DNA of 28,792 bases, taken from IMG/VR virus record IMGVR_UViG_3300042402_003058, positions 1 to 28,792 of that record. The stretch is one strand, 5' to 3'. How positions within the stretch are numbered: position 1 is the first letter of the stretch; each line of letters begins with the position of its first letter. This DNA comes from a virus. The notes beneath the pieces are model-generated. The model saw only the letters and a program-made list of their open reading frames with translations. It did no database searches and was not told the origin of the DNA. This document shows, piece by piece, positions 9,323-13,255 of this stretch. Both the position numbers and the translations under genes were made by a program.

Positions 9323-12300
9323 ATGGCAAGTAATAACAGAGTATTCGTGTCACCGGGTGTTTACACATCTGAGCTCGATTTAACATTTGTAGCACAGAGT
9401 GTAGGTGTTACGACATTAGGTTTAGTGGGTGAAACCTTAAAAGGTCCAGCTTTCGAACCAATTTTAATTTCAGATTTTGACGATTTTAAATTGTATTTTG
9501 GTACAACATCACCTGAAAAAGATGGTAATGGTAATCCAAAGTATGAATTAGGATATGTTGCAAAATCATATTTACAAGAATCAAATCAATTATTCGTAAC
9601 AAGAGTATTAGGTCTTTCAGGTTATAAACCATATAAGACTTTCGGTATTAAAACTAGCGGAGGTGTTATATTACAAGAATATGTTGGAAGTACTGATGTG
9701 GGTGAGATTACAATAACTACCACAGGTATTACAACAACAGAAGTTGGCGGTAGTACTCTATTAACAAATATTATCAAACATTTATCTGGTGTTACATCTT
9801 ATAATGGAACCGATATTGTTAGTTTATTAAAAAGTAAGTATGGGGGATATACTGGTTTAACAAATACATCAACTAACGAGTTTTTTGTTTTAGGTGCGCT
9901 TCCAACAGGAGAAACGGGTAATGGTACTGAATTGGTATCTCTATTAACTGAAAAATTATACGACGATAATAATAATACTAAAGAATGGTGGAATGCTATG
10001 CATTATGATGCAAACGGTTTTGTAACCCCACCATCTGGTGATGATGTTTCAGGTGTCTATTCTTATTTATTTCAATTTGATAACTCATCAAATAAATGGA
10101 CAATATTTAGATATGAATGGGATGCTAGATTAGCGTCTGATTATCATAATGTGGTAGTTGCAGCACTTAGATCAAGAGGTGTATATAGCGGTCAAACATT
10201 AGTTCATGAAGTAACGGGTAATACAAGTTTTACATTATCTGCAATTACCGGTCAGACTATTGATACAAACCCATTAGGTGAATTTAATATTAAAGTTACC
10301 GGAATTACCGAAGGAGCAAAAGAATTTACATGCAGTTTTGATAAATCATCAACAAAATATATCAGTAAAGTATTAGGAACTGATGTTTTTGATAAAGACA
10401 ACGGAGATTATCCTGTTTATGTTCATGAAGTTTATTCTAATTACTTAAAATCGGCTTATGAAAGAGGTTTAATAAGAGGTATTCAATTAGATCCTTCATA
10501 TGAATTGGAAGGTGAAAATTTCTTGGGACAATGGGATACCACAATATCTCCAATGGTTGTTTCAGAAGTACGCGGTGGTAGAGTTGCTGATTTATTCCAA
10601 GTTCAAACAATTTCTGATGGTGAAGCTGCTAACTACCAAGTTAAAATTAATATTCAAAATATTAATTTAGAAACAATGGAATTTGATTTAGTTGTTCGTG
10701 ATTTTAACGACACAGACGACAATCAAGTTGCTCTTGAAAAATACACAAGATGTTCAATGAATCCTGATATGCCAGGTTATGTGGCAAGAAAAGTTGGTAC
10801 TTCTGATGGTGAATATCCGTTAGTATCAAAAAGAATTATGTTAATTATGGCATTAGACGCCCCAGTTGATGCAGTTCCAGCAGGTTTTAAAGGATTTGCT
10901 AACAATGAAAACTTTGGCGCGGACAATGATACTTTAGGTAGTGTTACCTTTAAAACTAAATACTTTGATGCGGGTGATGTTGAAACATACGATGCTTCAG
11001 GTGCACCAAATATTGAAGCTGGTGATAAGGTAAGAAAGGTAATGTTAGGTTTATCGAGCACAGTTGGATTTGATTATGACCTATTAAAGTATAAGGGTGC
11101 ATCTGGTAATACTGAAACAACTGGTTTCCATTTATCTAAAAATGCAGCAACAATCACAGGCGCAACTAACGTTACAACAAATATGTTAGGTCAAACCCTT
11201 GAAGATGTATTTGGTGTGGGTGGTTATACTAACACCACAGGTTTTGCATATTACACAACACCTTATGACCTAGAAGGTCAATCCGATGAAGATACTAACA
11301 AATTGACAAACATTAATTTCCGTAAGTTTACATTCGCAGTTTATGGCGGTAGAGATGGTTGGGATATTTACAGAAGAACAAGAACTAATACAGACGCTTA
11401 TATCTTCGGTAAAACAACTTATAAACAAGGTATAACCACAACAGGAGGTACGTTCAGTGCACTAGCTGATTATGCGAATTCGGATTACTACGCCTATTTA
11501 CAAGGTATTGAAACATATGCAAATCCTGAAGCGGTAGATATTAACGTATTTGCTACTCCTGGTATTAACTTCCAAGATCATAGTTCATTGGTAAACCAAG
11601 CTATTGATATGGTTGAAAACGAAAGAGCCGATTCATTGTATATTATGAACTCACCTAATATTACAGGTGCAACTGCAACTGATGAAATTGTGGCAGCGTT
11701 AGATACAGCATCTATCGATTCTAACTATTCAGCAACATATTGGCCTTGGATTCAAGTAAGAGATACTGATAATGCAACTAATCTTTATATCCCACCAACA
11801 GGTGAGGTTGCTAAGAACATCGCATTAACAGATAATGTTTCTTATCCTTGGTTCGCTGTGGCGGGTTACTCAAGAGGTTTGGTTAACGCTGTTAAAGCAA
11901 CCAAAAAGCTTACGCTTGACGATAGAGATGTATTATATAAAAATAGAATTAACCCAATTGCCACATTCTCAGACACCGGTACTATTATTTGGGGTAACAA
12001 AACTTTACAAGTTAGAGAATCTGCATTAGATAGAATTAACGTAAGAAGATTGTTATTAAGAGCAAGAAAGTTAATTTCTGCAGTTTCTGTAAGATTATTG
12101 TTTGAACAAAACGATGATCAGGTTAGAAATGAATTCTTGAGATTGGTTAATCCTATCTTAGATGGTATTAAGAAAGAAAGAGGTTTATACGATTTCCGTG
12201 TAACAGTATCTAACGATCCTGAGGATATCGATGCAAACACTATGAGAGGTAAGATTTATATTAAACCAACTCGTTCTCTTGAATTTATCGATGTAGAGTT

Positions 12301-12340
12301 CATTATTACTCCAACAGGAGCATCATTCGAAAATATCTAA
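9323..12340 (+). CDS. Tail sheath protein (T4 gp18-like)
   Basis: A 1005-residue contractile tail sheath subunit. The N-terminus has the typical opening Val-Ser-Pro-Gly-Val-Tyr-Thr-Ser-Glu (9-17), then Gly-Leu-Val-Gly-Glu-Thr-Leu-Lys-Gly-Pro-Ala (33-43) and a Phe-Gly-Thr turn. The C-terminal core starts around 670 with Val-Tyr-Gly-Gly-Arg-Asp-Gly-Trp-Asp and ends with the sheath-type strands Lys-Ile-Tyr-Ile-Lys-Pro-Thr and Phe-Ile-Asp-Val-Glu-Phe. Sheath subunits form rings around the tube and contract to drive it into the host. The protein is much longer than T4 gp18 (659): the extra mass lies between about 100 and 620, where outer surface domains sit, so the sheath probably carries large exposed domains. 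Followed by a strong terminator; its leader contains a possible operator. Confidence 0.93.
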   Translation: MASNNRVFVSPGVYTSELDLTFVAQSVGVTTLGLVGETLKGPAFEPILISDFDDFKLYFGTTSPEKDGNGNPKYELGYVAKSYLQESNQLFVTRVLGLSGYKPYKTFGIKTSGGVILQEYVGSTDVGEITITTTGITTTEVGGSTLLTNIIKHLSGVTSYNGTDIVSLLKSKYGGYTGLTNTSTNEFFVLGALPTGETGNGTELVSLLTEKLYDDNNNTKEWWNAMHYDANGFVTPPSGDDVSGVYSYLFQFDNSSNKWTIFRYEWDARLASDYHNVVVAALRSRGVYSGQTLVHEVTGNTSFTLSAITGQTIDTNPLGEFNIKVTGITEGAKEFTCSFDKSSTKYISKVLGTDVFDKDNGDYPVYVHEVYSNYLKSAYERGLIRGIQLDPSYELEGENFLGQWDTTISPMVVSEVRGGRVADLFQVQTISDGEAANYQVKINIQNINLETMEFDLVVRDFNDTDDNQVALEKYTRCSMNPDMPGYVARKVGTSDGEYPLVSKRIMLIMALDAPVDAVPAGFKGFANNENFGADNDTLGSVTFKTKYFDAGDVETYDASGAPNIEAGDKVRKVMLGLSSTVGFDYDLLKYKGASGNTETTGFHLSKNAATITGATNVTTNMLGQTLEDVFGVGGYTNTTGFAYYTTPYDLEGQSDEDTNKLTNINFRKFTFAVYGGRDGWDIYRRTRTNTDAYIFGKTTYKQGITTTGGTFSALADYANSDYYAYLQGIETYANPEAVDINVFATPGINFQDHSSLVNQAIDMVENERADSLYIMNSPNITGATATDEIVAALDTASIDSNYSATYWPWIQVRDTDNATNLYIPPTGEVAKNIALTDNVSYPWFAVAGYSRGLVNAVKATKKLTLDDRDVLYKNRINPIATFSDTGTIIWGNKTLQVRESALDRINVRRLLLRARKLISAVSVRLLFEQNDDQVRNEFLRLVNPILDGIKKERGLYDFRVTVSNDPEDIDANTMRGKIYIKPTRSLEFIDVEFIITPTGASFENI

Positions 12341-12367: not shown

Positions 12368-12392
12368 GGAGGTCGAAAGACCTCCTTTTTTT
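12368..12392 (+). terminator. Rho-independent terminator after the sheath gene
   Basis: Perfect 7-bp stem GGAGGTC/GACCTCC with a GAAA loop, followed by seven T. It lies 28 bases after the sheath stop and separates sheath from tube transcripts. Confidence 0.92.
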
Positions 12393-12400
12393 GTTATGAG

Positions 12401-12414
12401 GTTCCACGTGGAAC
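12401..12414. promoter_or_regulatory. Perfect 14-bp palindrome identical to a chromosomal parS core
   Basis: GTTCCACGTGGAAC reads the same on both strands. It equals the core of parS sites bound by chromosomal ParB proteins, for example those of Pseudomonas aeruginosa, and differs at two symmetric bases from the Bacillus form GTTTCACGTGAAAC. The outer bases (G before, T after) do not extend the palindrome. As an RNA hairpin it would have only 5 pairs and no T-run, so it is not a second terminator. Binding by a host or phage ParB is inference; no parB gene is in this window. Confidence 0.55.
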
Positions 12415-12426
12415 TATTATTTAAAT

Positions 12427-12509: not shown

Positions 12510-12598
12510 TTAGTAGTATTAATTGTAATTTATTTTAAGTAAGTAATATATATTAATTAATATTGAATAATGGTTATGTAAAAAACTACGGAAAAAAA

Positions 12599-12626
12599 TT
12601 GACATTGTCAACCTTTTGGGTATAAT
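12599..12626 (+). promoter_or_regulatory. Consensus sigma70-type promoter for the tube gene, with inverted repeat over the -35
   Basis: TTGACA (12599-12604), 16-base spacer, TATAAT (12621-12626): both boxes are perfect. TTGACA is also the left half of a 13-base inverted repeat TTGACA-T-TGTCAA (12599-12611) that could be an operator. Bacteroidota housekeeping promoters normally look different (TTTG at -33, TAnnTTTG at -7), which makes this site notable. Confidence 0.5.
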
Positions 12627-12659
12627 TAATCTAAAATAAAATTATTTCTCTTTTGGATA

Positions 12660-12667
12660 TATTTATA
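12660..12667 (+). promoter_or_regulatory. Late-type promoter motif candidate (TATTTATA) for the tube gene
   Basis: Exact copy 39 bases before the tube ATG, the same spacing as the sheath gene motif (37), with a similar A/C-rich leader. Confidence 0.45.
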
Positions 12668-12706: not shown

Positions 12707-13195
12707 ATGGCCGATTTATTAATGAAAATGCCGACTCCTTACGAACCGAAAAGGGTCAACCGATTTATCGTAAGATTCAACTCAACTTTGGGTATAAACG
12801 AATGGTATGTGTCTGCTGCATCAAGACCAAGTGCTAAAATCAATTCAGTAGCAATTCCTTTTTTGAACACATCAACCTATGTTGCTGGTAGATTTGAGTG
12901 GAATGAAATTAAAATGACTTTTAGAGATCCAATTGGTCCTTCAGCATCACAAGCACTTATGGAATGGTTCCGTTTACATGCTGAATCGGTTACAGGTCGT
13001 ATGGGTTATGCCGCTGGTTACAAAAAAGATATCGAATTGGAGATGTTAGATCCAACTGGAGTTGTGGTTGAAAAATGGTTATTAGAGAACTGTTTTTTAA
13101 CTGATTTAAACTTCGGTGAATTAGATTATAACAGAGATGATTTAGCGAACATTACATGTTCATTAAGAATGGATAAATGTATATTAATCTATTAA
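12707..13195 (+). CDS. Tail tube protein (T4 gp19-like)
   Basis: A 162-residue tail tube subunit, almost the exact length of T4 gp19 (163). It shows the family's order: an N-terminal Tyr-Glu-Pro-Lys-Arg-Val-Asn-Arg-Phe strand (13-21), Ser-Arg-Pro-Ser-Ala (40-44), Thr-Phe-Arg-Asp-Pro-Ile (about 70-75), Trp-Phe-Arg-Leu-His-Ala (87-92), a Lys-Asp-Ile-Glu-Leu-Glu-Met-Leu-Asp-Pro-Thr-Gly strand pair (106-117), and a closing Ile-Thr-Cys-Ser-Leu-Arg-Met-Asp strand. Hexameric rings of it make the rigid inner tube inside the sheath. It stands as a single-gene unit between two terminators, which would allow high, separate expression. The start follows an A/C-rich leader with no Shine-Dalgarno. Confidence 0.95.
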   Translation: MADLLMKMPTPYEPKRVNRFIVRFNSTLGINEWYVSAASRPSAKINSVAIPFLNTSTYVAGRFEWNEIKMTFRDPIGPSASQALMEWFRLHAESVTGRMGYAAGYKKDIELEMLDPTGVVVEKWLLENCFLTDLNFGELDYNRDDLANITCSLRMDKCILIY

Positions 13196-13216: not shown

Positions 13217-13255
13217 AAAACCGATAGTTCACAAGATTATCGGTTTTTCTTTTTT
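13217..13255 (+). terminator. Rho-independent terminator after the tube gene
   Basis: Perfect 10-bp stem AAAACCGATA/TATCGGTTTT (13217-13226 and 13238-13247) with an 11-base loop, running into a T-rich tail (TTTTTCTTTTTT). Confidence 0.88.

Follow-up and report, generated by a model that had tools for sequence, protein, structure and literature searches.

Why a virus should carry a likeness of parS, the DNA mark that bacteria use for chromosome segregation, among its tail genes is the question raised by a short palindrome in the window, the whole 28,792-base virus record analysed here, which encodes a DNA polymerase, a helicase and neck, sheath, tube and baseplate-hub proteins according to its open reading frames and PHROG matches. 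The palindrome, GTTCCACGTGGAAC at positions 12401–12414 (no strand assigned), is a perfect 14-bp dyad with G or C at 8 of its 14 bases, and we identify it as a 14-bp parS core from its sequence and from relatives of the phage. It lies in the sheath–tube gap, which spans 366 bases at 20.2% G+C in the window, and it is one of five perfect 14-bp palindromes that the window contains. The preliminary description had called it a G+C-rich palindrome in A/T-rich DNA that was unlikely to be due to chance, and both points hold: when the gap was shuffled base by base 20,000 times (the manner of shuffling throughout this study), one of the shuffled sequences contained a perfect 14-bp palindrome having eight or more G/C bases.

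We examined how the gap is organized. The tail sheath gene (9323–12340, plus strand, 1005 aa; PHROG tail sheath phrog_23, E 3.7e-62) is followed by an intrinsic terminator of the sheath transcript (12368–12392, plus strand), recognized in the sequence by its GGAGGTC/GACCTCC stem, GAAA loop and seven T, and the palindrome begins eight bases past this T-run. The terminator scan also contains this stem, given there on the minus strand, and places 12400–12415 among the six terminator-like sites of the window. By hand count, four or more consecutive T are found no more than 12 bases upstream of the dyad in 28 of the 37 dyad-bearing regions described below. Nearer to the tail tube gene (12707–13195, plus strand, 162 aa; PHROG tail tube phrog_4542, E 6.5e-28), an alignment of 22 regions reveals a conserved block, GTAAAAAACTACGGAAAAAAATTGACATTGTCAA (12578–12611, plus strand), and the promoter scan places a TTGAC-N3-GTCAA dyad (12599–12611, plus strand) as the -35 element of a perfect sigma-70-like match (12599–12626; 12/12). 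Alignment and word counts further point to ATATTTATA (12659–12667, plus strand), upstream of the tube gene, as the probable late-promoter word of the phage; ATATTTAT is invariant and the final A nearly invariant across the 22 aligned gap regions, and TATTTATA stands upstream of 26 of 214 genes in the related genome G001 and 27 of 199 in G004. The preliminary description had also pointed to an A/T palindrome at 12550–12563 as a mark of a special locus. That palindrome exists, and the stretch holding it has no visible conservation in the 22-region alignment, the conserved downstream elements being others.

Several further features of this neighbourhood were recorded. At window positions 12578–12611 and at the same place in relatives stands a conserved GTAAAAAACTACGRAAAA together with a TTGAYAnnnTCAA dyad (alignment A1), and upstream of the GTAAAAAACTACGRAAAA block relatives have CCCAGTAT...ATACTGGG with a variable number of CTAGT repeats, of which the window lacks the CCCAGTAT part. 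After the tube gene, the terminator scan finds a probable terminator at 13217–13247, in which a long hairpin (AAAACCGATAGTT...ATTATCGGTTTT) is followed by a T-rich tail. In L122, L133, L038, L188/L190 and L244, other open frames seem by eye to end beside the dyad or to occupy the gap; these extra frames could represent insertions of free-standing genes, homing endonucleases for instance.

To follow the dyad among relatives, we ran three IMG/VR scans, using as queries the tube protein and two proteins related to it and taking 80 loci each among the matches listed. Of 216 loci examined, 18 were dropped for want of sufficient upstream DNA, and the other 198 yielded 96 distinct upstream regions, from which a non-redundant set of 54 regions at no more than 90% identity, window included, was drawn. 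The preliminary description had staked its reading on the palindrome recurring at this position in related phages, and a GTTYC-N4-GRAAC dyad with up to two mismatches does lie in the gap of 37 of the 54 regions, the window among them (26 perfect, 10 with one mismatch and 1 with two); the one- or two-mismatch matches of four regions (L238, L350, L277 and L353), which fall in other elements or elsewhere, were left out by name before this count. The start of the tube gene follows the dyad at distances of 240 to 337 bases in the 37 regions, and 17 of the 54 regions have no dyad. On a tree of tube proteins, dyad-bearing lineages occur on either side of the midpoint root, and the distribution takes 7 dyad changes against a mean of 14.7 for shuffled labels, which indicates clustering by descent; at least three of the changes are forced by well-supported branches. 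Because of this distribution, the dyad in the sheath–tube gap is probably ancestral to the phage family and was lost several times.

Among the 17 dyad-less regions, six (L298, L310, L346, L350, L340 and L292) form one clade (support 99) in which GTAAAAATTGAGATGA is conserved in the gap instead and the remainder of the gap is kept. No dyad was seen in the sheath–tube gap of four distant named phages (Mel-JY01, immuto, RM378 and LR756508). A search for relocated dyads in 16 records at up to one mismatch gave a match in four and none in G019–G023, which had been picked as dyad-less at the site. All 18 larger related records have the dyad at the sheath–tube gap, all of them being known beforehand as dyad-bearing and chosen from the 80 loci of the first tube scan; they also contain 19 scattered extra matches to the 14-mer at up to two mismatches, against 8 for a reversed control. 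Near position 820 of L378, a 16-mer site is flanked by CCAGTATACTGG and a terminator-like hairpin, and because of these flanks L378 probably belongs to the window's family.

How closely does the conserved dyad resemble parS? Across the 37 non-redundant regions, the majority base at each of 16 columns (-1 to 15) spells TGTTCCACGTGGAACA, which is the perfect parS of Pseudomonas aeruginosa, the sequence of its parS2 and parS3 (PMC4368675, in its available part). The family majority thus bears out the earlier assignment of the palindrome to the P. aeruginosa type of parS core. The window's own site agrees with this 16-mer at 14 of 14 core bases and differs at both outer bases (T and A). Measured against TGTTYCACGTGRAACA, the 16-bp palindromic parS consensus, 32 of the 37 sites lie within two mismatches (0 in 5 sites, 1 in 12, 2 in 15 and 3 in the other 5), and 34 have at least one perfect half-site GTTYCAC. 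Variation is nevertheless common, with 27 of the 37 sites differing from the 14-base consensus GTTYCACGTGRAAC, and CACGTG is unchanged in 16 sites, including that of the window, and altered in 21. The four central bases are still constrained (A in 36, C in 34, G in 28 and T in 29 of 37). According to the available part of PMC4368675, P. aeruginosa ParB binds more weakly to natural two-mismatch sites such as TGTTCCACGAGGAACG, and an intact CACGTG core is important for ParB. Taken together, the mismatch and half-site counts and the loss of CACGTG place the variation mostly within that of natural parS, with many sites of the weaker kind.

We next looked for a ParB that might act on these sites. 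The preliminary description had raised the possibility of a ParB-like protein encoded elsewhere by the phage, an idea that the related genomes do not bear out: ParB_N (PF02195) was found in 0 of the 18 related dyad-bearing records, most of which may be fragments but one of which, G001, looks complete (310,542 bases with a 99-base end repeat), and the same search was positive in 10 of 14 control genomes. By PF02195, then, no parB sits on the same genome as the site, as it would in a self-contained phage ParABS of the phage-plasmid type, and this lack of a recognizable ParB gene in the family suggests that the virus borrows the segregation machinery of its host. A single perfect 16-mer is present in G001 and likewise in G004 (288,260 bases); neither genome has one with one mismatch, and the looser GTTYC-N4-GRAAC dyad occurs in both one further time. 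G001, noted along with L218, L220 and L221 (240–310 kb), also carries one tmRNA gene and 31 tRNA genes, 28 of them within the final 10.5 kb.

The host of the window's phage family is probably a member of the Bacteroidota, as judged from the sequence around gene starts. Shine-Dalgarno words are scarcely in excess (upstream of 2 of 214 genes in G001, control 2; 9 of 199 in G004, control 2), and TATATTTG and TATCTTTG, which fit the TAnnTTTG promoter box of Bacteroidota, are enriched upstream of genes in G001; both fall outside the top 15 words of G004, so that the clue is clearer in the former genome. In a study of 12 gut species, two of which are Bacteroidetes, homologues of ParABS are recorded together with parS sites sought at up to two mismatches (PMC10197239, in its available part). 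A match to one cyanobacterial MAG, 25 residues long, was discarded as uninformative about the host.

Lone parS sites proved to extend well beyond this family. The preliminary description had supposed that parS is not to be expected in phage structural regions; an expectation of its absence from phages needs correcting, and parS sites are in strong excess among phages as a whole. The 14-mer occurs at no fewer than 120 IMG/VR loci; among the 120 listed, one (L038) encodes a tube or sheath relative in the DNA examined around the site, and 59 also carry the T and A that flank the core in the 16-mer, where about 7.5 would be expected by chance. The parS 16-mer was found in at least 120 stretches, against 10 in the whole collection for a reordered control palindrome of the same half composition. 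The 16-mer sites are intergenic in 67 of 127 cases at loci averaging 20% non-coding DNA, compared with 20 of 61 for 14-mer sites lacking the flank and 4 of 10 for the control palindrome, at loci with 29% non-coding DNA. ParB_N was detected in 0 of 29 larger IMG/VR records with the 16-mer (contigs of at least 30 kb among 80 rows shown) and in 1 of 10 control records.

Deposited phage genomes gave the same picture. As blastn with the bare 16-mer returned nothing at E 10, we searched with N-padded 18-mers and counted 16–17 contiguous matching bases; the two palindromic parS forms matched 108 (GTTCC) and 315 (GTTTC) of 50,697 phage records, and the composition-matched control palindromes (three for the GTTCC form, two for the GTTTC form) matched 0 records each. 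Among the matched records are microviruses and phages of Pseudomonas, Acinetobacter, Listeria, Bacillus, Lactobacillus, Gordonia, Arthrobacter, Microbacterium and Ruegeria. Among the matches listed, Pseudomonas phages appear under the GTTCC form, which is that of P. aeruginosa itself, and Listeria, Bacillus and Lactobacillus phages under the GTTTC form, to which the B. subtilis parS consensus TGTTNCACGTGAAACA belongs. Part of the matches is probably host DNA, namely the unannotated multi-contig Listeria phage LM records (within the 315) and a recF contig (within the 108). Two further groups, Klebsiella (10 records, most of them resembling RaK2 in name and size, the site lying, where annotated, inside a baseplate wedge or hypothetical gene) and Mycobacterium (27 records, with the rows shown placing the site in a hypothetical gene of similar-size phages), may each represent one inherited chance event, since the sites are in genes and the phages are alike. 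In vB_PpuM-KoPa-4 and Roomu-2, two phages of Pseudomonas putida KT2440, the sites fall outside annotated genes.

In 15 named phages with sites, which we picked from the matches, ParB_N was found in one (Stenotrophomonas phage BUCTxx99), and 10 of the 15 records have more than one site at up to one mismatch. Pseudomonas phage XD2 and Acinetobacter phage 313 have four sites each, Bacillus phage BcoS-136 has four perfect sites inside about 1 kb, Glutamicibacter phage Voltaire has two sites whose starts are 19 bases apart, and Bacillus phage B103, in which ParB_N was not found, has two perfect GTTTCACGTGRAAC sites. Clusters were observed in other genomes too. The gokushovirus KT264816.1, a 5-kb ssDNA phage without ParB_N, has two parS-type sites 2 bases apart at 2894–2923 (L450), one perfect and one with one mismatch, and further microviruses have parS-type sites. 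L417 contains TGTTCCACGTGGAACA five times in 11.5 kb, with similar downstream sequence (GCTACG...) at most of them, and resembles a repeated control element, and in L104, L383, L411, L420 and L421 TGTTCCACGTGGAACA is paired with TGTTTCACGTGAAACA with 7–8 bases between them. In the part of the literature that was searched we came across no paper describing lone parS sites in phages at large; the available parts of a survey of ParB folds that includes phages (PMC12704722) and of a study of Cluster O phages with a different repeated palindrome (PMC4351075) are silent on them.

The main rival to a parS-type function is that the dyad serves as operator for a different dimeric DNA-binding protein, encoded by phage or host, which regulates either the tube gene or transcription reading through from the sheath gene; its likeness to parS would then be the convergence of a short palindrome. 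It is made the main rival by the intact CACGTG in only 16 of 37 sites and by the 17 of 54 regions without a dyad, and we regard it as possible but rather unlikely. An operator would be at home in a conserved gap with further dyads (TTGAYAnnnTCAA and CCAGTATACTGG) and a late-promoter word, and it would tolerate both a dyad core that varies among relatives and the replacement by a different word at the same spot in one clade. Against it, the distance to the tube start varies over 240–337 bases, so that the dyad is not phased with the promoter; the majority bases equal parS at 16 of 16 columns; and parS 18-mers are far commoner in phages than control palindromes.

Two further explanations fare considerably worse. 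It is improbable that the dyad is one initiator site in a replication origin, or part of another cis-acting locus, beside the A/T-rich CTAGT-repeat stretch: the gap is indeed A/T-rich, with several dyads and with CTAGT repeats in relatives, but the GC skew of G001 and G004 tracks the coding strand and does not change over at the site, and the dyad may be missing while the remaining block persists. An RNA element, either a back-up terminator or a processing hairpin after the sheath terminator, is similarly hard to credit. The terminator scan does record, for the window, a stem of six pairs whose tail contains T, a five-pair plus-strand stem is kept in 27 of the 37 dyads (21 Watson-Crick and 6 with wobble), and of six sites folded with DNA parameters, four do clearly better than their shuffles. 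Yet the other two are no better folded than many shuffles by the same parameters, the stem has a mismatch in 10 of the 37 dyads, the presumed loop is conserved, and RNAalifold over 22 regions yields -1.42 kcal/mol with three pairs in the dyad. No T-run was seen after the dyad in the 22 aligned regions, and Rfam gave no match for the gap at gathering score. We therefore rejected an intrinsic terminator as the identity of the dyad on the grounds of the absent T-run, the RNAalifold energy and the stem mismatches. This agrees with the preliminary description, which had judged the palindrome not to be an obvious terminator; the strong hairpin with seven T ends eight bases earlier. A chance palindrome, for which nothing but the shortness of the site speaks, has a negligible probability in view of its conservation, with a dyad at up to one mismatch in 37 of 54 real regions (including L238, where it belongs to another element) and in 20 of 1080 shuffled ones.

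We favour, with moderate confidence, the reading of the palindrome as a parS-type site for host ParB, binding and benefit being the parts that we infer. With similar confidence, we consider that the site has been retained downstream of the sheath terminator in a group of large phages in which our search found no ParB and which probably infect Bacteroidota. The earlier interpretation thus survives in its parS identity and not in its suggestion of a phage-encoded ParB. In the proposed mechanism, host ParB would load on the phage site with CTP, close as a clamp and slide onto phage DNA, and the host ParA and its partners would then treat the ParB-coated phage genome as they do a chromosome origin. 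The phage genome might thereby be positioned in the cell, or be passed to daughters during a slow or dormant (carrier-state) infection, and a ParB clamp that slides and requires quiet DNA would be well placed behind a terminator. ParB binding and spreading, the action of ParA and the benefit to the phage are all predictions of this model. A broader proposal, which we offer tentatively and hold to be somewhat short of probable, is that lone parS sites matched to the host ParB are a general phage device, through which many ParB-less tailed phages and microviruses of separate descent would use the host segregation machinery to position, retain and transmit their genomes, with the window's family having kept its site since the common ancestor.

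If host ParB does bind these sites, chromosome segregation would be a host function widely exploited by virulent phages, which would matter for how phages persist in cells that divide or lie dormant and for where their genomes are positioned during infection. The question is open to direct test in cultured phages, for example those of P. putida KT2440, and the form of parS might serve as a clue to the host, given the phage lists under the GTTCC and GTTTC forms.

Among known systems, chromosomal parS provides the sequence itself: the 16-mer of P. aeruginosa parS2 and parS3, TGTTCCACGTGGAACA, equals the family majority, and weaker sites decay in a like manner. In contrast to chromosomal parS, the predicted site here is on a phage genome, between tail genes, with no ParB found. 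The phage-plasmids P1 and N15 encode their own ParABS; they have a centromere site on the phage genome in common with the window's family, but they encode ParA and ParB, whereas in the family ParB_N was not found. Closer in this respect are phi29 and its relatives, virulent and ParB-less like the window's phage family, for which Meijer et al. in 2005 reportedly implicated host Spo0J (ParB) in trapping the phi29 genome in spores; phi29 is, however, a small phage of a spore former, whereas the window's family consists of large phages, probably of Bacteroidota. The integrative element SGI1, according to the available part of PMC10954446, carries sites resembling parS and makes use of ParABS from IncC plasmids. 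The lender there is a plasmid and the case is experimentally proven, whereas the phage family is known from sequence and its presumed lender is the host chromosome. By the PF02195 search, the family has the first mark of such a parS-only hitchhiker, parS without a ParB of its own, and like SGI1, as far as that source describes it, the phages would be elements whose parS-type sites borrow the ParABS of another replicon. By analogy with SGI1 and phi29, the likely gain for the phage is the positioning and inheritance of its genome in host cells.
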